A DNA stretch of 52,105 nucleotides from Dactylosporangium siamense (lineage in GTDB: Bacteria > Actinomycetota > Actinomycetes > Mycobacteriales > Micromonosporaceae): NCBI RefSeq assembly GCF_016862795.1, contig NZ_BONQ01000185.1, positions 1-52,105 on the forward strand, given 5' to 3'. Of this stretch, positions 1,685 through 15,840 are shown one piece after another (within the stretch, counting starts at the first letter, position 1; the number at the start of each line of letters is the position of its first letter). A model generated the notes under the pieces. That model ran no database searches, had not been told where the DNA came from, and saw only the letters and a program-made list of their open reading frames with translations. The position numbers were made by a program, and so were the translations under genes.

Positions 1685-4600
1685 TCACCGGCGGGCGCGG
1701 GCCACGACCTCGTCGTCGGTGAGCGGGGCCCGGGGATGATGGCTGAGGCACAGCGGCGTCCGCACCAGCTGCGGTGGCTCGCCCTCCACCGTGACGTAGA
1801 ACTCGCCCGACGTGAGCAGTCCCAGGTCGGGGATGTCGCCGCCCTTCATCCGGGCCATCTCCCGGGCCGCCTCGATCTGCACCGGCGCGTTGAGCAGGCC
1901 GAAGAACTGGGTCGTGGCGTTGCCCGCGATCCGGTTGTGCAGGCCCTTCGGCGCCTGGGTCGCGAAGATCAGGCCGAGCCCGTACTTGCGGGCCTGGGAG
2001 GCGAGGGCGAGGGTGCTCTGGGTGCAGGCCGTCATCGCACCCGACGGCGCCAGGGTCTGGGCCTCGTCCATCACGAACAGGCCGAGCAACGGCCGGTCGG
2101 CGGCCGGGTGCTTCTTGATCCAGGCGAACAGCGCCATCTGCAGCTGGTTGACGAAGCCCTGGCGGGCCTCCTCGGCCGGCAGGCCGATCAGGCTGATCAC
2201 CGAGATCCGGGCGCGCTTGCCGGCCGTCGGCGTGAGCAGCACGCCGGGATCCGCCGGTGCCCCGCTGCCGGCGAACAGCGGGTCGTTGTCCATCGAGGCG
2301 GTGAGCGTCTGCGCCAGACCGGCGGCGATCTTGTCCGCGCCGTCGAGGCCACTGACCCCGGCGGGAAGGTCCGCGAGGAGGTGGATGAGGCCGGGGACGT
2401 CGCGGCCGCCCTGCCGGGCGTAGTGCTCCACCGCGCGGCGCAGGACCGCCAGGCCCAGGTGCACCTTGGCGGCCCGCCCGGCGAGCTGGGCGCGCGGGGC
2501 CAGGGCGGCCACCGCGGCCTCGACCGCCTCGGCGAACTCGTCCGGGTCGTCGCGCACCTGGCCGAAGTCCGGGAGCGGCTGGAAACTCAACGGCCGGCCC
2601 GACTCACGGCGCGGGGTCCAGACCACGACCTCGGTGCCGGCCAGGTACTCCTCCGCGCGTTCCCGATCGCCGGATCCCCACCATCGCGGTGGCTCCGGCC
2701 ACGCGTCGCCGAGCCGGGCCAGGTCGTTGTTGGGGTCCAGGACGATGGCGGACACGCCCTGCAGCGCGCACTCCTCGATGAGCCGGCGGATGAGCACCGT
2801 CTTGCCCGAGCCCGAGCCGGCGAAGATCGCCACGTGCTTGCGCAGGGCCTCCAGCGGCACGCGCACGGCGTCGCCGCCCCGCCCCTCGCGGCCCAGCACC
2901 AACTCGTGAACCTCCGCCGCGGCCGGCGGCGCACTCGAACCGGCCCAGTCATCGGCGTCGGCGAGGGCCTCCTTGAACAGTTTGACCTGCGCCGCCGGCC
3001 GGTGTTTGACCAGCCACGCCTGTAGGTCCACCGGGTTCTCGTCGCGCAGTCCGTGCAATGCGGCGAGCACCCTCAGGTCCGCCTCGTCGACGCCCACCGT
3101 CAGGCCGCCGTCGCGGTGAAACTCCTCGACCGCCAGCCGCGTCTTGGCCCCCGACGACCACGGGCCGTTGCGCACGAGGATCAGCTTGCGCTTGGCCACC
3201 GCCGCGGTCAGCCCGGCGGCGGTGCGGGCCCGGCGGACCCGGTTCAGCGCGGCGATCGCGTGGTGGGTGTCGCTGACCGCCCGGAAGCACCAGTGCACCT
3301 GATCCTCGGTCGCCTCGTCGAGGGTACGGCGCAGCCTCGCGTGCAGGTCCGGCTTCTCACTGGGCGGCGGGTCCAGGGTGAACACCTCGGCGTTCACCCC
3401 GTGCTCCAGGATCCAGGCGGTCAGGCCGGCGGTGAGCAGGGCCGGGAACGTGGTGTCCTCGGTGTCGGGATCGAGCGGGGACGCGACGTCGGCATCGCGT
3501 TTGAGCGCCTCGAACCGCGCGTCGATCCGGGTGATGACGTCGTCGGCCACCTCGGGCACCACCACGACGGGCGGTGCCGGCTCCTCGGCCTCGTCCAGCT
3601 CCCCGGACAGGCTCGTCAGCTCCCGGACCACGCCGGTCTTCAGACAGTCCCGGACGTGCCGGTCGATCTCCTTGAGCAGCTGCCGCGGCGTGTACTTGTC
3701 GACCTCCGCGAACACCGATTCCCGCACCGGCCACGTGGTGTAGTCCGGCACGAACCCGATGTCGTGGTACCGGGCGGTGAACCGACGCTCGACGATCTCC
3801 CGGGCGATGTCGGCGTCCAGGATGCCCTTCAGCGACGAGCAGAGGCGAAACCGGTCGGCAGTGGTATTGGTCGCCCGGTTGATGATGAGCGTCCAGGTCG
3901 CCGGTAGGCAGGCGACCACAACAAGCGTGCGGCGGGTGCGTTCCCGCAGCCGCAGCAGACCGCTGCCCATCTGTTCCAGGGCCAGCGCCTGCCGCTGACC
4001 GGCCTGCTCGTCCGTGTTGAGTGCCAGGTCGGCGCTGAGCGACGCCTGGGCCACCAACGTGTCGATCTGGTCGACCGCGATCACCGACGGTCCGGTCAGT
4101 GCCAGCAGCAGCGACAGGTCGCGGACGATGTCCTCGGCGGTGTGCGGCCGGCGGCGGATCCCCCACTCCTTGCGTTCGCCGGCGACAGACTCGTCGTCGG
4201 AGATGAAGTAGGCGTCGGCCACGTCGCGGTGCTCGGACTGTGGGGAGGCGCTGAGGGCGAGCGCCCGCGCGGTGTCCGAGGCCGTGTCGGCCACATACGA
4301 ATCGAATTCCCTGAGCCCTTCGAGGAACTCGTTCAGTGCTTTCGGGGTCAGCTCGATCTCGCCCATGACGGCGCGGCGGGCGGCCCGTGGCGCACCGATG
4401 CGCGAACACAGGCGGCGCAGCAGCAGCCGCAACTGGTTCCCGCCGTCGGCGACCGGCCGGGCCAGGCTCTCCCGCAGGTGGGCCAGGACGTTGGGCCAGA
4501 AGGTCTGTTCGTCGAGCAGGCTGACGAGGAAGAAGTACCCGCCCTGCTCCTGCACGCGCTGCCGGACCCCGCCGAGCAGGTGGGTCTTGCCCGATCCCCG

Positions 4601-4795
4601 CCGGCCCAGCAACGCCAGGCCGATCGGGTTGGAGTCGGTGCAGGCCGCCGCATCCGCGACCCCGTCCCGGAGCTCCTGCACGACGTCGGTGTGCAGGCCA
4701 TCGACGTGGAACGGCGACGGCCGCCAGGCGTCGTCCGGCACCGGCGCCCAGGTGAGCCGGAGCGCGGCGAGTGCGGCGAGGTCCTGTCCGGTCAT
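1685..4795 (-). CDS. Two-ATPase protein: N-terminal AAA/STAND-like domain plus C-terminal HerA-type ATPase
   Basis: 1036 residues from the ATG that overlaps the upstream stop as ATGA; a longer frame exists but its extra N-terminus is shadow sequence of the upstream gene. The first ATPase has Walker A GRRGSGKT at 64-71, a Walker B-like SVIAVD at 237-242 and a sensor-like LVVVACLP near 291-298, resembling AAA/Orc-Cdc6 or STAND modules. The second has Walker A AGSGSGKT at 659-666 and Walker B LFVMDE at 906-911, followed by a long HerA/DUF87-type C-terminus with SQARKYGLGLIFATQAPKG. HerA-type ATPases are hexameric DNA translocases. Residues about 440-640 form an unassigned linker domain. It is the last gene of a three-gene operon, translationally coupled to a winged-helix protein. 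A role in DNA handling within a defence or conflict system is inference. Confidence 0.85.
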   Translation of the reverse strand: MTGQDLAALAALRLTWAPVPDDAWRPSPFHVDGLHTDVVQELRDGVADAAACTDSNPIGLALLGRRGSGKTHLLGGVRQRVQEQGGYFFLVSLLDEQTFWPNVLAHLRESLARPVADGGNQLRLLLRRLCSRIGAPRAARRAVMGEIELTPKALNEFLEGLREFDSYVADTASDTARALALSASPQSEHRDVADAYFISDDESVAGERKEWGIRRRPHTAEDIVRDLSLLLALTGPSVIAVDQIDTLVAQASLSADLALNTDEQAGQRQALALEQMGSGLLRLRERTRRTLVVVACLPATWTLIINRATNTTADRFRLCSSLKGILDADIAREIVERRFTARYHDIGFVPDYTTWPVRESVFAEVDKYTPRQLLKEIDRHVRDCLKTGVVRELTSLSGELDEAEEPAPPVVVVPEVADDVITRIDARFEALKRDADVASPLDPDTEDTTFPALLTAGLTAWILEHGVNAEVFTLDPPPSEKPDLHARLRRTLDEATEDQVHWCFRAVSDTHHAIAALNRVRRARTAAGLTAAVAKRKLILVRNGPWSSGAKTRLAVEEFHRDGGLTVGVDEADLRVLAALHGLRDENPVDLQAWLVKHRPAAQVKLFKEALADADDWAGSSAPPAAAEVHELVLGREGRGGDAVRVPLEALRKHVAIFAGSGSGKTVLIRRLIEECALQGVSAIVLDPNNDLARLGDAWPEPPRWWGSGDRERAEEYLAGTEVVVWTPRRESGRPLSFQPLPDFGQVRDDPDEFAEAVEAAVAALAPRAQLAGRAAKVHLGLAVLRRAVEHYARQGGRDVPGLIHLLADLPAGVSGLDGADKIAAGLAQTLTASMDNDPLFAGSGAPADPGVLLTPTAGKRARISVISLIGLPAEEARQGFVNQLQMALFAWIKKHPAADRPLLGLFVMDEAQTLAPSGAMTACTQSTLALASQARKYGLGLIFATQAPKGLHNRIAGNATTQFFGLLNAPVQIEAAREMARMKGGDIPDLGLLTSGEFYVTVEGEPPQLVRTPLCLSHHPRAPLTDDEVVARARR

Positions 4796-5400
4796 CGCAG
4801 CCCGATCGACAGCAGATGGCGATTCTCGCCGCCGATCCGCACGGCCGCCCGCCGTTCCTCGACCTTCAACGTCTTCTGGTTGTCCTCGGGCTCGAGTTCG
4901 ACGTCGGGGGAGTCGAGCAGCCGCTCCAGCGCCTTGTCGAGGTCGTCCTTCGACACGTCGGCGAACCTCGGGCGCAGGCGGCTCAGGCTGACCCACGCCC
5001 CGGGTTCAGTGGTCAGCTCGGCGTAGGCCGCCCGGATCCGCTCCTCCAGGCCGCGGTGCCCGTTGACCGCAGCCACGCGCGGCCGGTCGAGCTGCGCGTT
5101 GTGGAGGGCTGACAGCGCGGCCCAGAGCTGCTGCTCCCGGCCATTGCTTTTGCCCTTGTCGGACCGGTCTTCGGCGATCTGGCCGCCGAGCAGTTTCGTG
5201 CCGGTCTTCGACAGGGTGTGGTGGTAGGTGCTGCCCACCTTTTGCGAGTCCACGTAACCAAGCCCGTTGAGCCGGGCGTAGCTGTCGCCGATGAGCCGGA
5301 CGCCGTAGGCCGTGTCCAGCTCCTTGTTGGAGATCTCCCGGCCCTCGATCTGCAGCAGGATGAGGAACGCGTAGTCCGTGGGGGTCAGGTCGCCGGCCAT
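4792..5400 (-). CDS. Double winged-helix DNA-binding-like protein
   Basis: 202 residues. The ATG is preceded by AAAGGA at good spacing. Residues about 1-85 look like a MarR/PadR-type winged helix (TPTDYAFLILLQIEGREISNKEL, then a YxRLNGLGYVDSQK recognition and wing region). Residues about 130-202 look like a second winged helix ending in RRAAVRIGGENRHLLSIG, a pattern I associate with accessory subunits of large ATPases, though I cannot name a family. It lies 16 bp after the HTH/P-loop gene and its TGA overlaps the ATG of the AAA/HerA gene, so the two products are probably made together and may form a complex. A DNA-loading adaptor or repressor role is possible. No enzyme motif is visible. Confidence 0.75.
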   Translation of the reverse strand: MAGDLTPTDYAFLILLQIEGREISNKELDTAYGVRLIGDSYARLNGLGYVDSQKVGSTYHHTLSKTGTKLLGGQIAEDRSDKGKSNGREQQLWAALSALHNAQLDRPRVAAVNGHRGLEERIRAAYAELTTEPGAWVSLSRLRPRFADVSKDDLDKALERLLDSPDVELEPEDNQKTLKVEERRAAVRIGGENRHLLSIGLR

Positions 5401-5416
5401 GTGGGGTCCTTTCGGG

Positions 5417-7594
5417 TTATCGGGTGGGGGGACGGGGGGCGCCGTCGGCGGTCAGCCCGAACGCGCGCAGCTCGGCCAGCTGCTCGATCGGCATCGTCTC
5501 GTGGGCGGTGTGCAGGGCCATGAGCCGGTCGGCCGCGCCGTGGGTGCCCGCGTCCAGCTCGGTGTGCAGCCCCTCCAGGTCGCGCAGCTCGAAGAGCAGG
5601 CCGCACAGCTGCCAGGCCGCCTCCGGGTCGCCGCCGGCGGTGGCCCGCAGCGCGGCCAGTTCCGACGCCGCTCCAGCGGCCCGCACCACCGCCTCGTGGA
5701 CCTTCGAGAGGCGCCGCCGCGCCGCCTCGTCGCCGTCGTCCGCCCGGGCCCGCAGCTCGTCCACGTCGCCCCAGGCGACGTGCAGGTCGGCGAGGGCCTC
5801 GGCGGCGTACTCGTGCCCGTCGTCGGCGCGCTCCCGCAGCTCCCGCAGGCAGCCGTGCCTGGCGAGGTCCTCGACCAGCTCCTCGCCGGCGACGGCCTCA
5901 CCGGCGTCCGCCCGGGCGCGCAGGGCGTCGCGGCGGCCACCGTCGTCGAGGATCTCCACGAGCCGCCGGCGCGCGACCGGATCCCGCAGCGCCAAGGGTC
6001 GGAGCTGGTCCAAGCGCTGGCGGAGCGCCTCGACGGCGGCGAGGCAGTCGCCGGCAACGCCGTCCGAGGGGTCCGCGGCGAGCCTGCGGTGCAGCACCTC
6101 GACGGCCCGTCCGAACCGGTCCTGGCGGGCCAGCAGCCGGGCGAGTTCCACGGCTGCGGCGCCGTCTCCGAACGCGCCGGCGAGCCGTTCCAGGGCCTGT
6201 TCGGTGTACTCGTACCGCAGCCGGGCGGTGGCGCTGTCGGCGATGCGGCGCAGGTCCGCCGGCCGGTCGGTCCGGGCGATCAACGCCTGCCAGGCCTCGT
6301 GCGGGACGCGTTCGGCCCGCCGCTGCCGCCGCAGGTGCTGCGCCAGGTAGTCCGCGACGGTGTACCCGGCGAAGGTGCCGGGCCGGCCACCGTCGGACGC
6401 CGACAGCGCCGACACGTCGCCGTACAGCGACTGGGTGGCGTACGGGACGGCCTCGGCCAGCCAATGCTCCTGTGGCTTCACCCGCCACTGTCCGGTCAGG
6501 TACCCGGCCATCGCGTCGACCAGCAGGTGCTCGCTCAACGGCGACTGGACGCCGAGGCGGTGCGCGTCGGCCGCCGCGTTGATCATCGCCTTGGCGTAGG
6601 GGCGCGCCTGCTCCCAGTGGAGGACCAGGGCGGGCCCGCCGGCCAGCACCTGGGTCAGGCCCGCGTCGCGGGTCTCCAGCGCGATCCGGATCCGGGCGTC
6701 CTCCGCGGCCTTCGCGTGGGCGCGTTCGCGCTCGTCGGCGGTGAAGTCGTCCGCGACGCTGATGACGGTCGCGCTGCGCAGCAGCCGGCGGATGTCGTCG
6801 GCGCCGGTCGGGTCGGACTGCCCGCCGACGAGCCGCGCGTCGTAGTGGTCGGGCCACAGCGTCCCGACGACGATGTTCGGCTTGCGGGTCAGCGCACGGA
6901 CACACTCCGCCGACAGCGGGGGATGGCTGCCGAGGTAGCGCTGGAGCTCGTCGAGCCAGAAGATCGTCTGGCCGGGCGGATCGTGCCGGAGCTCCAGCAG
7001 TTCCTCGGTCTCGGCCGGCTGCACGAGGTACCAGTTCGGCGCCACGTCGTGGATCGCCTCGTACAGCGACCGCGTCTTGCCCGTCGACGACCCGCCGACC
7101 AGGATCACGAAGCTTCCGCGCTCGACCACGCTCGTCAGTGCCGCGCGCAACCGGAAGTCGAACTCCCGCTCGACGTATGCGGGCAGGTCATCGGCCGCGT
7201 CGGGCGCCATGATCGCGCTGTGGATGCCGAGCTCGCGCGGGGACGCCGTGTCGAAGCGGTCGGTGCCGGCCGCGCGCTGGGCGGCGCCCCGCTCCCCGGC
7301 CTTGATCCGCCGGTGCGCGGCGAGCCACGACTGCCGCACGTGTGACGGCTCCTCGCACAGGGCGAGCAGGCTCTCCAGGGCCTGCTCGCCGAGCAGGGTC
7401 TGACCCCTGAACGCGTCGCTCAGTGTGGCCCGTTTCAGCGCCAGGTGCGGACCGTTCCATGCGCTGGTGCGCTTCTCGATCTGGGACAGTGACAATCCCT
7501 TGCCCTGGCTGAGGGCTCGAAGCGCGGCGCCGAATTCGCTTTTCGTGCGCACTCGGGAGAGGTCGGCGGCGGTTCCGGGCGTCAGCGTGCTCAC
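5417..7594 (-). CDS. XRE-type HTH plus P-loop (nSTAND-like) protein with C-terminal helical repeats
   Basis: 725 residues, GTG start directly after a G-rich run that may serve as the ribosome binding site. Residues about 18-80 form the actinobacterial HTH type seen before STAND-like NTPases (GLSLSQIEKRTSAW, then KRATLSDAFRGQTLL). Walker A is GGSSTGKT at 167-174 and Walker B IFWLDE at 211-216. From about residue 430 the chain becomes Arg/Ala/Asp/Glu-rich with short recurring helical units such as ELRARADDGDEAA, resembling TPR/HEAT-like sensor repeats. The layout (HTH, NTPase, repeats) matches regulated ATP-dependent conflict proteins described in multicellular bacteria. It is first in the operon, divergent from the cyclase-like gene. 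Ligand and effector are unknown. Confidence 0.8.
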   Translation of the reverse strand: MSTLTPGTAADLSRVRTKSEFGAALRALSQGKGLSLSQIEKRTSAWNGPHLALKRATLSDAFRGQTLLGEQALESLLALCEEPSHVRQSWLAAHRRIKAGERGAAQRAAGTDRFDTASPRELGIHSAIMAPDAADDLPAYVEREFDFRLRAALTSVVERGSFVILVGGSSTGKTRSLYEAIHDVAPNWYLVQPAETEELLELRHDPPGQTIFWLDELQRYLGSHPPLSAECVRALTRKPNIVVGTLWPDHYDARLVGGQSDPTGADDIRRLLRSATVISVADDFTADERERAHAKAAEDARIRIALETRDAGLTQVLAGGPALVLHWEQARPYAKAMINAAADAHRLGVQSPLSEHLLVDAMAGYLTGQWRVKPQEHWLAEAVPYATQSLYGDVSALSASDGGRPGTFAGYTVADYLAQHLRRQRRAERVPHEAWQALIARTDRPADLRRIADSATARLRYEYTEQALERLAGAFGDGAAAVELARLLARQDRFGRAVEVLHRRLAADPSDGVAGDCLAAVEALRQRLDQLRPLALRDPVARRRLVEILDDGGRRDALRARADAGEAVAGEELVEDLARHGCLRELRERADDGHEYAAEALADLHVAWGDVDELRARADDGDEAARRRLSKVHEAVVRAAGAASELAALRATAGGDPEAAWQLCGLLFELRDLEGLHTELDAGTHGAADRLMALHTAHETMPIEQLAELRAFGLTADGAPRPPTR

Positions 7595-7935
7595 CCCCCA
7601 ACCCGTTGGTGCTCGCGGTGTGCACCAGCGGACCTGCGGTCAGGCTATTGACGGCCGGCCCGGAATGCCATCGGCGCTCTTCACTGTCTGGTCCTCCGTT
7701 CGGGTCACGCGTTCCGGCAGTGGTGCCGTCCGGCGCGGCCCTCCGGAGCGTCCGGTGGATCCACCGGACACCGGACGGTCGCGGGGCTGCGTCGCAGCTC
7801 AGCGCGGTGGTGGCCGGCCGGCTGCGGCCGGATCGCTCCGGTTCCGTGGCCGGACGGGTCTCCTGGTTGGTGAACTCATGCCGTCAACCTCGGGAACCCG
7901 GCCGGGACCCCGCCCCATCGCGTCAAGGAGTCCCG
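7595..7935. promoter_or_regulatory. Divergent intergenic region with a perfect 20-bp palindrome at 7750-7769
   Basis: This 341-bp gap separates the HTH/P-loop operon from the cyclase-like gene. It contains GTCCGGTGGATCCACCGGAC, a perfect 20-bp palindrome, flanked by further CCGGAC-like half sites. A site of this length midway between divergent genes is a good operator candidate, for instance for the HTH domain of the adjacent protein. An AAGGAG ribosome binding site precedes the cyclase-like start at 7936. I could not pick convincing -35/-10 boxes. Confidence 0.6.
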
Positions 7936-8655
7936 ATGCAGCAATGGCACACCATCGTCCAGAGCGGTGGCTCTCTTCTGATCTTCGCGGCGACCGCCCT
8001 CAGGCTGATCACGGTGTGGCGGCAGTCGTATCCGCCGCCGCGGCTGGAGGCCGCCGGTGCGACGCAACGGTTCCTCTGCCTGTCGGTCGACGTCCAGGGG
8101 TACGCCCGCAACGACGACCTGCGGCAGGCGCAGATCCAGCACGACCTCATCGACCTGCTCGATCAGGCGGGAGCGCGGGCCGGCCTCGATCGCCGGCGCT
8201 GGATCCGGCAACCCGCCGGCGACGCGGAGCTGGCGCTGATCCCGTACGCCGAGGCGCCGGCCCGGGTGGTCGGCGACTTCTGCCTGGAGCTCGCGGCCGC
8301 GCTGTGGCGGTACAACCGGGTGCGTGACCCGATCACCCGGATGCGGTTGCGCCTGGCGCTCGACGACGGCCCGGCCGACGTCGCCCGCAACGGCTTCGCC
8401 GGCCAGGCGGTCGTCGGCGCCAGCCGCCTGGTCGGCGCGGCACCGCTGCGGCATGCCCTCGCCCTGACCGGCACGGCCGACCTCGCGGTCATGCTGTCCG
8501 ACGGTGTCCACCGCGACTGGGTCCGCAGTGGACGGTCGGCCGTGCGGCCCGGATGGTGCCGGCGGGTCGCGGTCGTGGAGAAGGAGTACGCGGCCGACGC
8601 CTGGCTGTGGCTGCCCGGCGCGGACGTGCACGGCCTGGTCCTGGCCGGGCACTAG
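7936..8655 (+). CDS. Membrane-anchored class III nucleotidyl cyclase-like protein
   Basis: 239 residues; the ATG follows AAGGAG. Residues about 11-28 are a likely membrane helix (GGSLLIFAATALRLITVW). The rest resembles the class III cyclase homology domain. VDVQGY at 51-56 carries the first metal Asp (D52) and GDAELA at 95-100 carries the second (D96). RLRLALDDG near 137-145 corresponds to the RVGIHTG strand, and GASRL at 161-165 keeps the transition-state Arg (R164). The Asn normally four residues before that Arg is replaced by Val, so activity is uncertain. It is shorter than a full-length sensor cyclase and has no visible sensor. It diverges from the HTH/HerA operon; a signalling role in that system is inference. 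Confidence 0.65.
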   Translation: MQQWHTIVQSGGSLLIFAATALRLITVWRQSYPPPRLEAAGATQRFLCLSVDVQGYARNDDLRQAQIQHDLIDLLDQAGARAGLDRRRWIRQPAGDAELALIPYAEAPARVVGDFCLELAAALWRYNRVRDPITRMRLRLALDDGPADVARNGFAGQAVVGASRLVGAAPLRHALALTGTADLAVMLSDGVHRDWVRSGRSAVRPGWCRRVAVVEKEYAADAWLWLPGADVHGLVLAGH

Positions 8656-8715
8656 AGCGGACGGCCTCGTTGCAGGCGGCGGCGGTGGTTTCGGCAGGAT
8701 AGTGCCCGGCCCGGT

Positions 8716-8747
8716 CGCCCGTCCTGGCGGACACGCCAGGACGGGCG
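8716..8747. terminator. Bidirectional stem-loop terminator
   Basis: A perfect 14-bp stem (8716-8729 with 8734-8747) and a GACA loop sit between the stop of the cyclase-like gene and the stop of the convergent deacetylase. There is no clear U-tract, which is common for actinobacterial terminators. Confidence 0.75.
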
Positions 8748-8756
8748 CGGGTCATC

Positions 8757-9812
8757 TCATACCGTGCAGGTCAGCGTGGGTACGGAGTTCGTGCCGTTCC
8801 AGGTGCCGGTGAAGCCGAACGAGGTCGTGCCGCCGGCCGGGACGGTGCCGTTGTAGGACGCGTTCGTCACCGTGATCGTGGCGCCGGACGCGCTCAACGT
8901 GCCGTTCCACAGCTGGGTGATCGTCTGGCCGTTGGCGAACGTCCATCTCACCGTCCACCGCGAGATGGCGGCGGTCCCGGCGGTCACCGTGACCTGGGCC
9001 TGGAATCCGCCCTGCCACGGGTTGGTGATGGCGTACGTCGCCGAGCAGGCCCCACCCGCCGGCGGCGGTGAGCTGGGCGGCGGCGAGCTGGGCGGTGGCG
9101 GGCTGCTGGGCGGTGGGGTGGTCGGGTTGGTCCCGTCCGGGGCGACCGCCCGGCCGGTCTGCGGGGAGATCATGCCCGCGCACAGGTTGCGCGACGCCAG
9201 GCCCTGGGCGATGCGCGGGATCGCGGCGACCGTGTTGGCCGGCCAGTCGTGCATGAGGATGATCTGGCCGTTGGTGAGGCGGGCGTTGGCCTGGACGATC
9301 GCGTCGACGCTGGCGTTGTTCCAGTCGCCGGAGTCGACGTCCCAGATGATCTGGGTCAGGCCGTAGCGGGACAGGACCGACTGCAGGGTGCCGTTGGTCT
9401 CGCCGTACGGCGGCCGGAAGAGCTTCGGGGTGCCGCCCCCGGCGTTAGCGATGGCCTGCTGGGTGCGCGAGACCTCGGAGTCGATCTGGGACTGGCTCTG
9501 CTGGGTCAGGTGCGGGTGGGTGTAGCTGTGGTTGCCGACCCACATGCCGGCGCTCACCTGCGCGCGGACCTGGGACGGGTACTGCGCGGCGTACTGACCC
9601 TCGTTGAACATCGTGGCGCGCAGGCCGTTCTGGCGCAGCGCGTTGAGCAGGTTGCCGGTGTTGTTGCCCGGGCCGTCGTCGAACGTGAGCCCGACATAGC
9701 CGTTGCAGGTCGCGGCGCTCGCCGGGGTGGCGGCCGTGACGACGAACGTGGTGAGGGCCGCGGCCGCCGATACGGCGGCAGCGGTGGCGAGCAGACGGTT
9801 CCGCAGGTTCAT
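8757..9812 (-). CDS. Secreted CE4 polysaccharide deacetylase with C-terminal CBM2
   Basis: 351 residues; the ATG is preceded by GAGGAGG. A signal peptide (about 1-33, ending ASA-A) leads into a NodB/CE4 domain with TFDDGP at 43-48, metal His residues in NHSYTH (H95, H99), RPPYG at 133-137 and ILMHDW at 185-190. These residues bind the metal and remove N- or O-acetyl groups from chitin-, peptidoglycan- or xylan-like polymers. A Pro/Ser linker (about 225-254) joins a CBM2 module (about 256-351) with conserved aromatic residues and terminal Cys, which binds crystalline cellulose or chitin. The binding module favours a role in plant or fungal wall degradation, such as acetylxylan esterase or chitin deacetylase, rather than self-wall remodelling. 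Confidence 0.9.
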   Translation of the reverse strand: MNLRNRLLATAAAVSAAAALTTFVVTAATPASAATCNGYVGLTFDDGPGNNTGNLLNALRQNGLRATMFNEGQYAAQYPSQVRAQVSAGMWVGNHSYTHPHLTQQSQSQIDSEVSRTQQAIANAGGGTPKLFRPPYGETNGTLQSVLSRYGLTQIIWDVDSGDWNNASVDAIVQANARLTNGQIILMHDWPANTVAAIPRIAQGLASRNLCAGMISPQTGRAVAPDGTNPTTPPPSSPPPPSSPPPSSPPPAGGACSATYAITNPWQGGFQAQVTVTAGTAAISRWTVRWTFANGQTITQLWNGTLSASGATITVTNASYNGTVPAGGTTSFGFTGTWNGTNSVPTLTCTV

Positions 9813-13165: not shown

Positions 13166-13666
13166 GTGCTCGTGAATGCCCCGGCCGCCGGTGCGGCGGA
13201 CGACACCACCATCGCCGCCGGCGAGGTGTCAGCACCTGTCTTCGTCGATGCCACGGGTCGTCGTGGACGGCGGATCCGAGTCGTCTTCCATCTGTTCGGT
13301 GGAGCGGCGTTGGCCTATGCGGTGCTGGTCCTGACCGCCGCGCTCCTCGTCACCGGCCCGCTGGACCTGCTGTCGCTGCCGGCGCCGGCGCCGGCGCCGT
13401 CCACGTCCGCGCCCACGAGGGCGCCGGCCGGCAAGAACACGCCGACGCCCGGGCAGGCCGGCAAGCGCAACCCCGGCCGCAACCCCACGCCCGTCGTGGC
13501 CAGCGCGTCCGTCGGGCCGCGTGGCTCCGTGACCGTCGCGCCGTCGCCCGAGCCGTCACCGCCGGAGGCCTCCGTGTCGCCGTCGGGCCCATCGACCGGG
13601 CCGAGCACGTCCGCCACGCCGCAGCAGCCGGAGCAGAGCCCCACCGCCGAGGCGGGCCCGGCGTGA
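13166..13666 (+). CDS. Small Pro/Ser-rich single-pass membrane protein, MatA-like position
   Basis: 166 residues from a GTG; a second GTG two codons later is equally possible, and neither has a strong ribosome binding site. A cytoplasmic N-terminus with RRGRRIR precedes one membrane helix (about 43-70), then a long extracellular tail rich in Pro, Ala, Ser and Thr without a fold I recognise. Its TGA overlaps the GTG of the deacetylase/glycosyltransferase gene, so the two are translationally coupled. In Streptomyces a small membrane protein gene precedes the similar matB; by position this may be a MatA-like partner, but sequence identity to MatA is not something I can verify here. Confidence 0.6.
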   Translation: MLVNAPAAGAADDTTIAAGEVSAPVFVDATGRRGRRIRVVFHLFGGAALAYAVLVLTAALLVTGPLDLLSLPAPAPAPSTSAPTRAPAGKNTPTPGQAGKRNPGRNPTPVVASASVGPRGSVTVAPSPEPSPPEASVSPSGPSTGPSTSATPQQPEQSPTAEAGPA

Positions 13667-15840
13667 CCCGGGCGCGGGGTCGGGTGTCGTTCGGCCGGCT
13701 GATCTTCGGGGCGATCGCGCTGAGCGTGCTGGTCGGCGCGCTGCTGGTCGAGGCCTACGCCAATGCCGAGTTCCACCCCGATCACACCGCGAAACCCGGG
13801 CAGCGCAGCAAGGTGCCGGCCGAGGTCATCGATGGTGGCCCGATCATCGACACCCGCACCGCGACGGTGCGCTCCTACCGGCTGCCGGCCCGCACCATCG
13901 CCCTCACCTTCGACGACGGCCCGGACCCGCGGTGGACGCCGCGGGTTGTGGAGGTGCTGCGCCGGCACCACGTCAACGCCACGTTCTTCGTCGTCGGGTC
14001 CCAGGTGATCCGGCACCCGGAGATCGTCACGGCGCTCGCCCGGGCCGGCGACGAGATCGGTGTCCACACCTTCACGCACCCGCGACTCGACCGCCTGCCA
14101 CAGTGGCAGCGCGAGCTGGAGTACTCCCAGACCCAGCTCGCCATCGTGCACGCCACCGGCACCAAGTCGGCGCTGCTGCGGCTGCCGTACACCTCCAGCG
14201 CCCGTGCCGTCGACGACACCCAGTGGCCGCTGATCCGGGAGGCCGGCCGGCTCGGCTACCTGTCGATCATGGCGGACACGGACAGCCGGGACTGGAGCGG
14301 TCCCGGCGTCGACGCGATCATCGCCGGCGCGACTCCGCCGGGCGACTCGGGCGCGATCGTGCCCATGCACGACGGCGGCGGCGACCGCGCGCAGACCGTC
14401 GCGGCGCTGGACCGGTTCATTCCCATGATGCAGCGGCGCGGCTACACCTTCACCACGGTGTCGCAGGGCCTGGCGCGCACGCTCGCGGGACACGCGGTCG
14501 TCGTCGGCGCGCCGACGGGCGCGGCCGACAAGCGGCGCGCATTCGCACTGGCCACGGCCGTCGTGCTGGCGGACTGGGTGACGGCCGCCTTCCGCGTGCT
14601 GTTCCTGGCCGCCGGCGTGCTGACGATCGCCCGTACCGTGGCGATGCTCCTGCTCGCGGGCCGGCACGCGCGGCGACGGCGGGCCGCGTCGTGGCGGTGG
14701 GGCCCGCCGGTGCGCCTGCCGGTGTCGGTGATCGTGCCGGCCTACAACGAGAAGGAGGGGATCGAGGCCGCGGTGCGGTCCCTGGCCGGCGGCGACCACC
14801 CCGGTGGGATCGAGGTGGTGGTCGTCGATGACGGCTCGACCGACGGCACGGCGGCGCTGGTGGAGGCGATGCGATTACCGAACGTGCGGGTGGTGCGGAT
14901 CCCCAACGGCGGCAAGCCGAACGCGCTGAACGTCGGGGTGGCGATGGCCCAGCACGACCTGATCGTCATGGTCGACGGTGACACCGTCTTCGAACCCGAC
15001 TCGATCCGGCATCTGGTGCAGCCGTTCGCCGACGCCTTCGTCGGCGCGGTGGCGGGCAACGTCAAGGTCGGCAACCGCCGGTCGATCGTGGCCCGTTGGC
15101 AGCACATCGAATACGTCATCGGGTTCAACCTGGACCGCCGGCTCTACGACACCCTGCGCTGCATGCCGACCATCCCGGGCGCGATCGGCGCGTTCCGCCG
15201 CGAGGCGCTGCAGGACATCGGCGGGATCAGCCACGAAACTCTCGCCGAGGACACCGACGCCACCATGGCGCTGTGCCGCGTCGGCTGGCGCGTCGTCTAC
15301 GAGGAACGCGCCCGCGCCTGGACCGAGGCGCCGGCCACCCTGCGGCAGCTGTGGTTGCAGCGCTACCGCTGGAGCTACGGCACCATGCAGGCGATGTGGA
15401 AGCACCGCCGGGCGATGCTCGACCGTGGCCCGTCAGGCCGGTTCGGCCGGGTCGGTCTGCCCCTGGTCGGGTTCTTCGGCATCGCGCTGCCGCTGCTCGC
15501 CCCGCTCATCGACATCATGTTCGTGTACGGCCTGTGCTTCTCCAGCCGGATGGTCACCACCGTCGCCTGGCTGGTCATGTTCGCCGTGCAGGTCCTCACC
15601 GCCGTCGTCGCCTTCCGCCTCGACAAGGAGCGGCTCCGCGCCCTGTGGGTCCTGCCGCTGCAGCAGATCGCCTACCGCCAGCTCATGTACATCGTGCTCC
15701 TACAGTCCCTCGGCACCGCCCTCACCGGCGCCCGGCTGCGCTGGCACAAGCTGCACCGGTCGGGCTCCGCCGCCGCGGCCGCCCCGGTGCTTCCGGTGGC
15801 GCCCGCGGACGCCCGCACGGCGGCGTTGCGCACCGGTTGA
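13663..15840 (+). CDS. Bifunctional polysaccharide deacetylase / family 2 glycosyltransferase (MatB-like)
   Basis: 725 residues from a GTG in the GTGA overlap. After a membrane anchor (about 10-30) comes an extracellular CE4 domain: TFDDGPD at 82-88, HTFTHP at 135-140, LRLPYT near 172-177. A membrane segment near 295-335 leads to a cytosolic GT2 domain: SVIVPAYNE, DDGSTDG from 389, DGD at 438-440, EDTD at 529-532 and QRYRW at 566-570. Several helices follow at the C-terminus. This is the D, D, D, QxxRW set of processive synthases. Together they would polymerise and partly deacetylate an N-acetylglucosamine-type polymer, as for the poly-beta-1,6-GlcNAc made by MatAB in Streptomyces, which drives pellet aggregation and adhesion. 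The exact linkage is inference. Confidence 0.88.
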   Translation: MTRARGRVSFGRLIFGAIALSVLVGALLVEAYANAEFHPDHTAKPGQRSKVPAEVIDGGPIIDTRTATVRSYRLPARTIALTFDDGPDPRWTPRVVEVLRRHHVNATFFVVGSQVIRHPEIVTALARAGDEIGVHTFTHPRLDRLPQWQRELEYSQTQLAIVHATGTKSALLRLPYTSSARAVDDTQWPLIREAGRLGYLSIMADTDSRDWSGPGVDAIIAGATPPGDSGAIVPMHDGGGDRAQTVAALDRFIPMMQRRGYTFTTVSQGLARTLAGHAVVVGAPTGAADKRRAFALATAVVLADWVTAAFRVLFLAAGVLTIARTVAMLLLAGRHARRRRAASWRWGPPVRLPVSVIVPAYNEKEGIEAAVRSLAGGDHPGGIEVVVVDDGSTDGTAALVEAMRLPNVRVVRIPNGGKPNALNVGVAMAQHDLIVMVDGDTVFEPDSIRHLVQPFADAFVGAVAGNVKVGNRRSIVARWQHIEYVIGFNLDRRLYDTLRCMPTIPGAIGAFRREALQDIGGISHETLAEDTDATMALCRVGWRVVYEERARAWTEAPATLRQLWLQRYRWSYGTMQAMWKHRRAMLDRGPSGRFGRVGLPLVGFFGIALPLLAPLIDIMFVYGLCFSSRMVTTVAWLVMFAVQVLTAVVAFRLDKERLRALWVLPLQQIAYRQLMYIVLLQSLGTALTGARLRWHKLHRSGSAAAAAPVLPVAPADARTAALRTG

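Follow-up and report, generated by a model that had tools for sequence, protein, structure and literature searches.

Analysis of a 52,105-nucleotide stretch of Dactylosporangium siamense DNA (RefSeq assembly GCF_016862795.1, contig NZ_BONQ01000185.1, positions 1 to 52,105; hereafter the window) revealed a gene cassette whose constant core is two genes, encoding the tandem winged helix-turn-helix (wHTH) protein P0002 and the two-ATPase protein P0001, with interchangeable partner genes beside the pair in its relatives. The cassette probably represents a variant form of an anti-invader class predicted recently, not a housekeeping locus. In 2024, Orc/CDC6-coupled 'HerA/FtsK capture' systems were predicted; they are proposed to seize invader DNA as it is replicated, transferred or packaged and to bring it to a nuclease (PMC10853773). 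The predicted defence role of the cassette is well supported, and its assignment to the capture kind is the reading that we favour, with some confidence. The features of the locus are as follows.

1685..4795, minus strand: P0001, AAA and HerA ATPase, 1036 residues, with an N-terminal AAA_22-type ATPase, an uncharacterised middle region and a C-terminal HerA/FtsK-type ATPase
4792..5400, minus strand: P0002, tandem winged-helix protein, the constant partner of P0001, 202 residues
5417..7594, minus strand: P0003, helix-turn-helix (HTH), STAND-like P-loop NTPase and alpha-solenoid repeats, 725 residues, GTG start
7595..7935, no strand: divergent intergenic region between P0003 and P0004, 341 bp, presumably holding both promoters
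7936..8655, plus strand: P0004, class III cyclase-like protein, an optional divergent neighbour, 239 residues

P0003 stands ahead of P0002 with a gap of 16 bp, the P0002 and P0001 reading frames share a 4-bp ATGA overlap, and P0003 and P0004 diverge. These coordinates agree with the initial annotation, which had described a tight three-gene operon and a divergent fourth gene. All four genes were judged to be real, and the frames of P0001 to P0003 are intact. An Rfam scan of the window gave no match, and no tRNA was found in it.

The linkage of the core was analysed in 298 genomes drawn from the order, which were not hand-chosen and for which the match listings are complete. P0001 relatives were present in 56 genomes and P0002 relatives in 53, all of them among the 56, and 60 of the 63 P0002 matches lay within 500 bp of a P0001 match. 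The initial annotation had proposed a survey of homologue neighbourhoods; across the order the two genes proved to be adjacent more often than by chance, and not scattered. A second set of 144 loci comprised the window, 60 picked best matches, 80 loci kept from 568 confirmed relatives among the matches listed, two of three plasmid records, and a locus chosen by its cyclase hit (L237). Removal of seven near-duplicates left 137 loci, a set of best matches biased to close relatives, and the pair occurs together in all 137. Another 20 stretches were fetched around relatives of P0004 and P0003; one of these (L238) also holds P0001 and was left uncounted. P0001 is patchily distributed (93 of 150 genomes of the family, 56/298 in the order draw and 6/396 in a phylum draw), and a housekeeping locus was rejected on this distribution. 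It also occurs in multiple copies: a second locus in the genome of the window, L087, has its own DUF559 nuclease.

P0001 carries two P-loop ATPase domains, the second HerA-like, as initially annotated. Pfam matched AAA_22 at residues 60-175 (expectation value, E, 1.2e-9) and DUF87/HerA at residues 644-696 (E 9.8e-10), and both domains were matched in 23/23 aligned relatives; a conserved middle region lies at about 420-610. At E 0.01, the AAA type of these relatives was AAA_22 in 23, AAA_16 in 22, NACHT in 20 and ORC-CDC6-like in 2. In the HerA half, the P-loop S661-T666, the Walker B pair D910-E911, R936 and Q947 are invariant in all 23. Members of the HerA/FtsK clade are marked by Walker A and B motifs, a sensor-1 Gln ending strand 4 and an Arg finger just upstream (PMC10853773); P0001 has the Walker A and B motifs, the sensor-1 Gln and the upstream Arg, with strands assigned by eye. 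Further profile matches were to the PDB entries 4d2i, 9x1l, 8wiv and 8xau, to HerA/FtsK and TrwB-type profiles, and to the PADLOC model mad8 (PDLC04140; residues 632-1005, E 1.8e-24). P0001 scored far under the cut-off of the NCBIfam HerA models (20.5 versus 800 bits).

The predicted structure of P0002 consists of two winged-helix units linked by a long helix, with a mean predicted local distance difference test (pLDDT) score of 89, and thus bears out the double winged-helix protein first described. Library scans of the Pfam, PADLOC and NCBIfam type gave no family match (in PADLOC, none at E 1), and comparison of the model with PDB folds gave no match below E 0.001. A profile search of solved structures returned mostly calmodulin, which was dismissed as chance.

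P0003 was modelled with N-terminal HTH-like helices, a P-loop domain and an alpha-solenoid (mean pLDDT 84, predicted template modelling score 0.58). Among solved folds, Foldseek placed it closest to human SAMD9 (E 3.4e-5) and Apaf-1 (E 3.1e-3); TM-scores over the whole chain were low. Going by the model, P0003 thus has the arrangement of a STAND NTPase, an Apaf-1-like P-loop NTPase followed by repeats, in line with the HTH-STAND assignment made initially. Sequence matches in Pfam were weak, to repeats and to nSTAND3 (E 0.088), and no match was obtained for its profile against the PDB at E 0.1 or against PADLOC models at E 1. Among P0003 matches in the 150 family genomes, the top-scoring 17 (E up to 5.1e-141) are each next to a P0001 relative, as read from match coordinates, and the remaining weaker matches compared are not; it is therefore a particular P0003 subfamily that is tied to the core, and not the wider family.

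Profile searches of open reading frames were used to count partner genes in the 137 loci, as our own gene caller missed some genes. A DUF559 nuclease is present in 76 loci, the P0003 family in 32, a trypsin-NACHT-WD40 protein in 16, AIPR/AbiU in 7 and DUF4365 in 4. For trypsin, NACHT, AIPR, phosphorylase and DUF4365, between one and nine members of each were tested directly, and profiles carried the labels over to the rest. The DUF559 protein, of about 340 residues, is encoded directly ahead of the pair and has the DUF559 domain in its C-terminal part (E 1.7e-11 and 2e-12 in the two proteins tested). DUF559 proteins are endonucleases of the PD-(D/E)XK type, for which 3hrl is a relative of solved structure (E 1e-10), and their acidic motif residues are invariant in 20/20 sequences. 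This nuclease, the commonest partner and absent from the window, had been overlooked in the initial annotation. The P0003 family likewise stands ahead of the pair, in 10 loci with the DUF559 nuclease and in 22 without it. The 16 loci with the trypsin-NACHT-WD40 protein, encoded divergently and with its domains tested in one case, have neither DUF559 nor P0003; a Trypco1 protein accompanies this form in 11 loci. A nucleoside-phosphorylase-like protein was found in nine loci, all with the P0003 family. Where its gene comes immediately after P0001, as it does in six loci, the protein additionally has a bDLD3 death-like domain. These six (L129, L131, L132, L133, L135 and L076) are convergent with the P0001 relative and lie within about 130 bp of its end.

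In nine loci of one clade (L082, L085, L089, L092, L093, L119, L125, L185 and L189, with L285-L288), the nuclease form lies directly ahead of the type I-G CRISPR-Cas genes cas7g-cas5/6g-cas3g-cas8g on the same strand. One of the nine was fully tested by profiles, which identified Cas7g, Cas5/6g, Cas3g, Cas8g, Cas4/1g and Cas2g. CRISPR arrays of up to 112 repeats were detected in the fetched stretches of eight of the nine loci. They lie on the nuclease side in five (L082, L089, L093, L125 and L189), of which three (L082, L093 and L189) have arrays on both sides; L092 has no array within its fetched, unextended stretch.

P0004 had been annotated as a membrane-anchored protein with class III cyclase motifs. 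A profile of 27 relatives matches the class III cyclase-type structure 3mr7 (E 7.3e-5), and both metal-binding Asp positions, D52 and D96, are kept in 27/27, which upholds the cyclase-like part of that assignment. Conservation of the anchor did not emerge, the N-terminal hydrophobic stretch being aligned in the window's sequence alone among the 27. Arg164 is kept in 26/27. Position 160, where class III cyclases carry the transition-state Asn of their Asn and Arg motif, is Val in P0004 and Asn in 4/27 relatives, so P0004 lacks that residue. Library scans of P0004 gave no Pfam, PADLOC or NCBIfam match.

Within a span of 9 kb ahead of the core and 4.5 kb behind it, a P0004-family gene accompanied the cassette at 2 of 136 loci, the window and L067. 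L237, outside the 136 because it was chosen by its cyclase hit, also has it. P0004 relatives occur in 70 of the 150 family genomes, mostly away from P0001. P0004 was accordingly rejected as a core gene, and the co-occurrence of the cyclase that the initial annotation had expected of a single unit was not borne out. Elsewhere, the gene opposite P0003 encodes a phosphorylase-like protein (L072, L112), an Mrr-type restriction endonuclease (L077) or a DpnII/MboI-type restriction endonuclease (L074), and at most P0003 loci it shows no evident link. The evidence favours treating P0004 as one among the various genes found opposite P0003; from this small number of cases, it is plausibly the effector or regulator of the window's cassette.

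Relatives of P0004 were also observed in other company. In L243, a gene cluster with a P0004 relative encodes a PycTM-type protein (4259-4747) and an nSTAND3-like protein (7402-9504); some other P0004 relatives also share a locus with nSTAND3-like proteins, and Crp-like regulators were seen by eye beside several such clusters. A P0004-family domain follows CATRA-N/CATRA-C in L237 (12207-14423) and in L250 (8531-10756), the latter in the window's own genome, and the L237 fusion continues into a Pycsar/CAP12-type TIR domain. No PycTM or PycTIR effector beside P0004 was seen by eye in the window's gene list, and a PADLOC scan, covering 13663-15840 only, gave no match.

The history of the cassette was examined with a quick P0001 tree of 137 rows with Shimodaira-Hasegawa-like approximate likelihood ratio test (SH-aLRT) support, in which the deepest forks are unsupported. 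The window falls in an 18-row clade (support 100) of P0003 forms without nuclease, nested in a 46-row clade (support 100) in which forms with the nuclease alone and forms with both the nuclease and P0003 also occur. On the simplest reading of this topology, an ancestral nuclease-wHTH-HerA cassette would have acquired P0003 in front of it and later have lost the nuclease, more than once. Two Streptosporangiaceae rows (L136 and L186) lie inside a Micromonosporaceae clade. In Tsukamurella tyrosinosolvens (L258, 10251-15219), a DUF559-hypothetical-DUF87 cassette lies between rplN and rpsQ in a ribosomal-protein gene cluster, with VapBC and a DEAD helicase nearby, in a record labelled as a plasmid that looks chromosomal. 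Outside Actinomycetota, the three-gene nuclease-wHTH-AAA/HerA form was found in a plasmid record of the alphaproteobacterium Methylobacterium aquaticum (L257, 10159-15099). The placement of L136 and L186, the Tsukamurella ribosomal cluster and the Methylobacterium record together suggest transfer of the cassette between hosts. In an insertion-site test within the genus, relatives of the chitin-deacetylase-like neighbour were found in 5 of 7 genomes including the window's, and the other flank was found only in the window's own genome. Among three fetched places, no other shared window genes stood beside that neighbour's relatives save ABC-type ATPase matches, and a clean empty insertion site could not be shown.

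The core fits the capture proposal because AAA and HerA domains stand in one chain, a wHTH protein is the partner, and a restriction-type nuclease is present in the commonest form. HerA/FtsK motors translocate DNA. For the cassette we infer DNA pumping, sensing, an order of activation and a part for P0004 along the following lines. P0001 would load onto foreign DNA, aided by its AAA domain and P0002, and its HerA domain would pump the DNA. In the commonest form, cleavage of the captured DNA would fall to the DUF559 nuclease, whose gene immediately precedes the pair. The branch of the window has the P0003 gene in the nuclease's place; P0003 may respond to the motor once engaged, or to some molecule of the invader, and activate an effector, for which the best candidate is the divergent gene: P0004 here, the phosphorylase-like protein or restriction endonuclease in relatives. 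The step from the STAND-like protein to P0004 is tentative, and we regard it as rather unlikely to hold as drawn. As the window lacks the nuclease, the response could come from P0003 with P0004, from an effector elsewhere (L087 has a DUF559 nuclease) or from DNA pumping alone; we lean towards the first of these. A broader proposal makes the wHTH and AAA/HerA pair a general DNA-capture platform with interchangeable readouts, in which the window's branch would signal instead of cutting, with P0003 passing motor engagement on to a cyclase-like or nucleoside-phosphorylase enzyme that produces a second messenger or depletes nucleotides, and the nuclease form would in another branch have become ancillary to type I-G; we hold this extension to be doubtful.

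Several observations weigh against assignment of the cassette to the capture kind. The window's four proteins gave no recognisable nuclease, and none was found in the window by the DUF559 profile. The AAA-half Walker B of P0001 is D-Q, not D-E, in 23/23 relatives, and ATP hydrolysis at this domain therefore appears doubtful; D-Q Walker B motifs are also found in hydrolysis-dead mutants of other AAA proteins. The flanks of the window hold a secreted repeat protein, a chitin-deacetylase-like gene and metabolic genes, unlike a defence island. None of the labelled partners is present in 13/137 loci, and in the mycobacterial loci L192-L195 and L206 the wHTH-HerA pair follows genes without an evident defence link by eye and has no recognised partner; the bias of the locus set to close relatives is to be added to these points. 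None of 50,697 phage records matched, and 79 pattern hits in viral contigs yielded no confirmed relative. Of 72,556 plasmid records three matched, one of them 11.85 Mb long and one with ribosomal-protein genes, both looking chromosomal. Plasmid or phage carriage was rejected on these phage, viral and plasmid results.

The initial annotation had treated the four genes as one defence unit, and the part of this claim that stands is the conflict or defence role, with nuclease, NACHT, AIPR and type I-G CRISPR neighbours and presence in 56/298 genomes; membership of the cyclase does not (2/136 loci). The corresponding alternative is a single signalling unit in which P0003 senses, P0004 makes a second messenger, and P0002 and P0001 act on DNA. 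It draws on the comparison of the window with L067, from another genus: the four genes are shared in the same order with P0003 and P0004 back to back in both, at 75-78% identity for P0001 and P0004 and 64-69% for P0002 and P0003, and no further called gene is shared at E 1e-15, flanking genes included. The wider P0004 family, with its PycTM locus (L243), CATRA-cyclase (L250) and CATRA-cyclase-TIR (L237) members, points the same way. Yet these two loci are the only such cases in the 136, the nearest relative in the same genus (L068) has the three operon genes without the cyclase, no cyclic-nucleotide effector was recognised beside P0004, and the transition-state Asn position is not kept. We therefore consider the four-gene signalling unit unlikely. 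The absence of the commonest-form nuclease could alternatively mean that the window's copy is a decayed cassette with a non-functional remainder, and P0003-only forms do arise within a clade that also holds nuclease forms; however, the frames are intact, catalytic-type motifs are kept, and the nuclease-less branch comprises 18 rows with long separate histories, so that decay is highly improbable.

Two further explanations detach the core from capture. P0001 and P0002 might form a DNA-maintenance or DNA-transfer module, for segregation or conjugation, that lies near defence genes by chance. The HerA/FtsK and TrwB-type profile matches are compatible with such a module, and the P0002 wHTH weakly resembles the partition protein AspA (E 0.003, a chance-level value that calmodulin equals). 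The patchy and multi-copy distribution argues against it, as does the recurrence of nuclease, NACHT, AIPR and CRISPR partners at fixed positions, and no relaxase or partner ParA was noticed in the gene lists; we judge it improbable. The neighbourhood argument rests on these repeated, position-fixed partners. The mad8 match of P0001 would suggest a MADS-type system. This profile is unspecific: it hits all 14 control genomes and, in the genome of the window, 171 places. At E 1, none of the PADLOC models was matched by P0002, P0003 or P0004; on this comparison, based on PADLOC models, MADS membership was dropped as almost certainly wrong.

If the capture assignment is correct, actinomycetes combine one DNA-motor core with five or more kinds of partner gene, and this shared core with differing readouts would lend itself well to studying what capture does in immunity. 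The type I-G forms raise the question of whether interference or spacer uptake benefits from a DNA pump paired with a nuclease, and the nuclease-less form in the window that of whether capture can trigger signalling or nucleotide depletion instead of cleavage.

The initial annotation had recognised no named system in this combination, and none of the named systems tested here matched. Literature searches limited to open-licence papers turned up no account of this version, its interchangeable partners or its type I-G placement, nor any paper that joins these parts. Pycsar and CATRA systems are approached through P0004 relatives that stand beside PycTM (L243) or are fused to CATRA and a CAP12/Pycsar TIR domain (L237), whereas no such effector was matched in the window and P0004 matches no PADLOC model. 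SIR2-HerA and DUF4297-HerA are two-gene HerA-based anti-phage systems. They share with the cassette the HerA motor and PDB profile matches, but no SIR2 or DUF4297 partner was matched, and P0001 has an extra N-terminal AAA domain. DndFGH likewise offers a wHTH partner and, in DndH, a C-terminal HerA domain with sensor Gln and upstream Arg; P0001 differs in having no DAM or restriction domain by Pfam and an N-terminal AAA domain instead (PMC10853773). BREX-related capture (BRC) systems combine HerA/FtsK and AAA domains with wHTH and STAND-type components, but are described with PglZ, DUF4007 and DUF6079, none of which was matched by the window's four proteins (PMC12839542); BrxC-type proteins also had no match among the four. 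The context of cyclic nucleotide monophosphate (cNMP) cyclases, death-like domains, trypsin and STAND proteins in conflict systems has been described (PMC7159879, PMC8195603).

The Orc/CDC6-coupled capture systems, whose prediction in print had gone unnoticed in the initial annotation (PMC10853773), are compared with the cassette last. The nuclease of the relatives is DUF559, a term absent from the main text of PMC10853773, and no active restriction endonuclease was recognised in the window's four proteins. Capture systems also have an inactive restriction endonuclease domain between AAA and wHTH; the part of P0001 that might house such a domain is its conserved middle region at about 420-610. 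The HTH-STAND-repeat, trypsin-NACHT-WD40, AIPR and type I-G partners fall outside the capture section of that paper, the supplements of which may list the same proteins. The likeness lies in an AAA domain, possibly of the same Orc/STAND sort, coupled to HerA/FtsK, in patchy neighbourhoods, in wHTH components that include a separate protein of two to four wHTH units, to which P0002 with its two modelled units corresponds, and in a restriction-type nuclease, which most relatives carry as DUF559 (PMC10853773).

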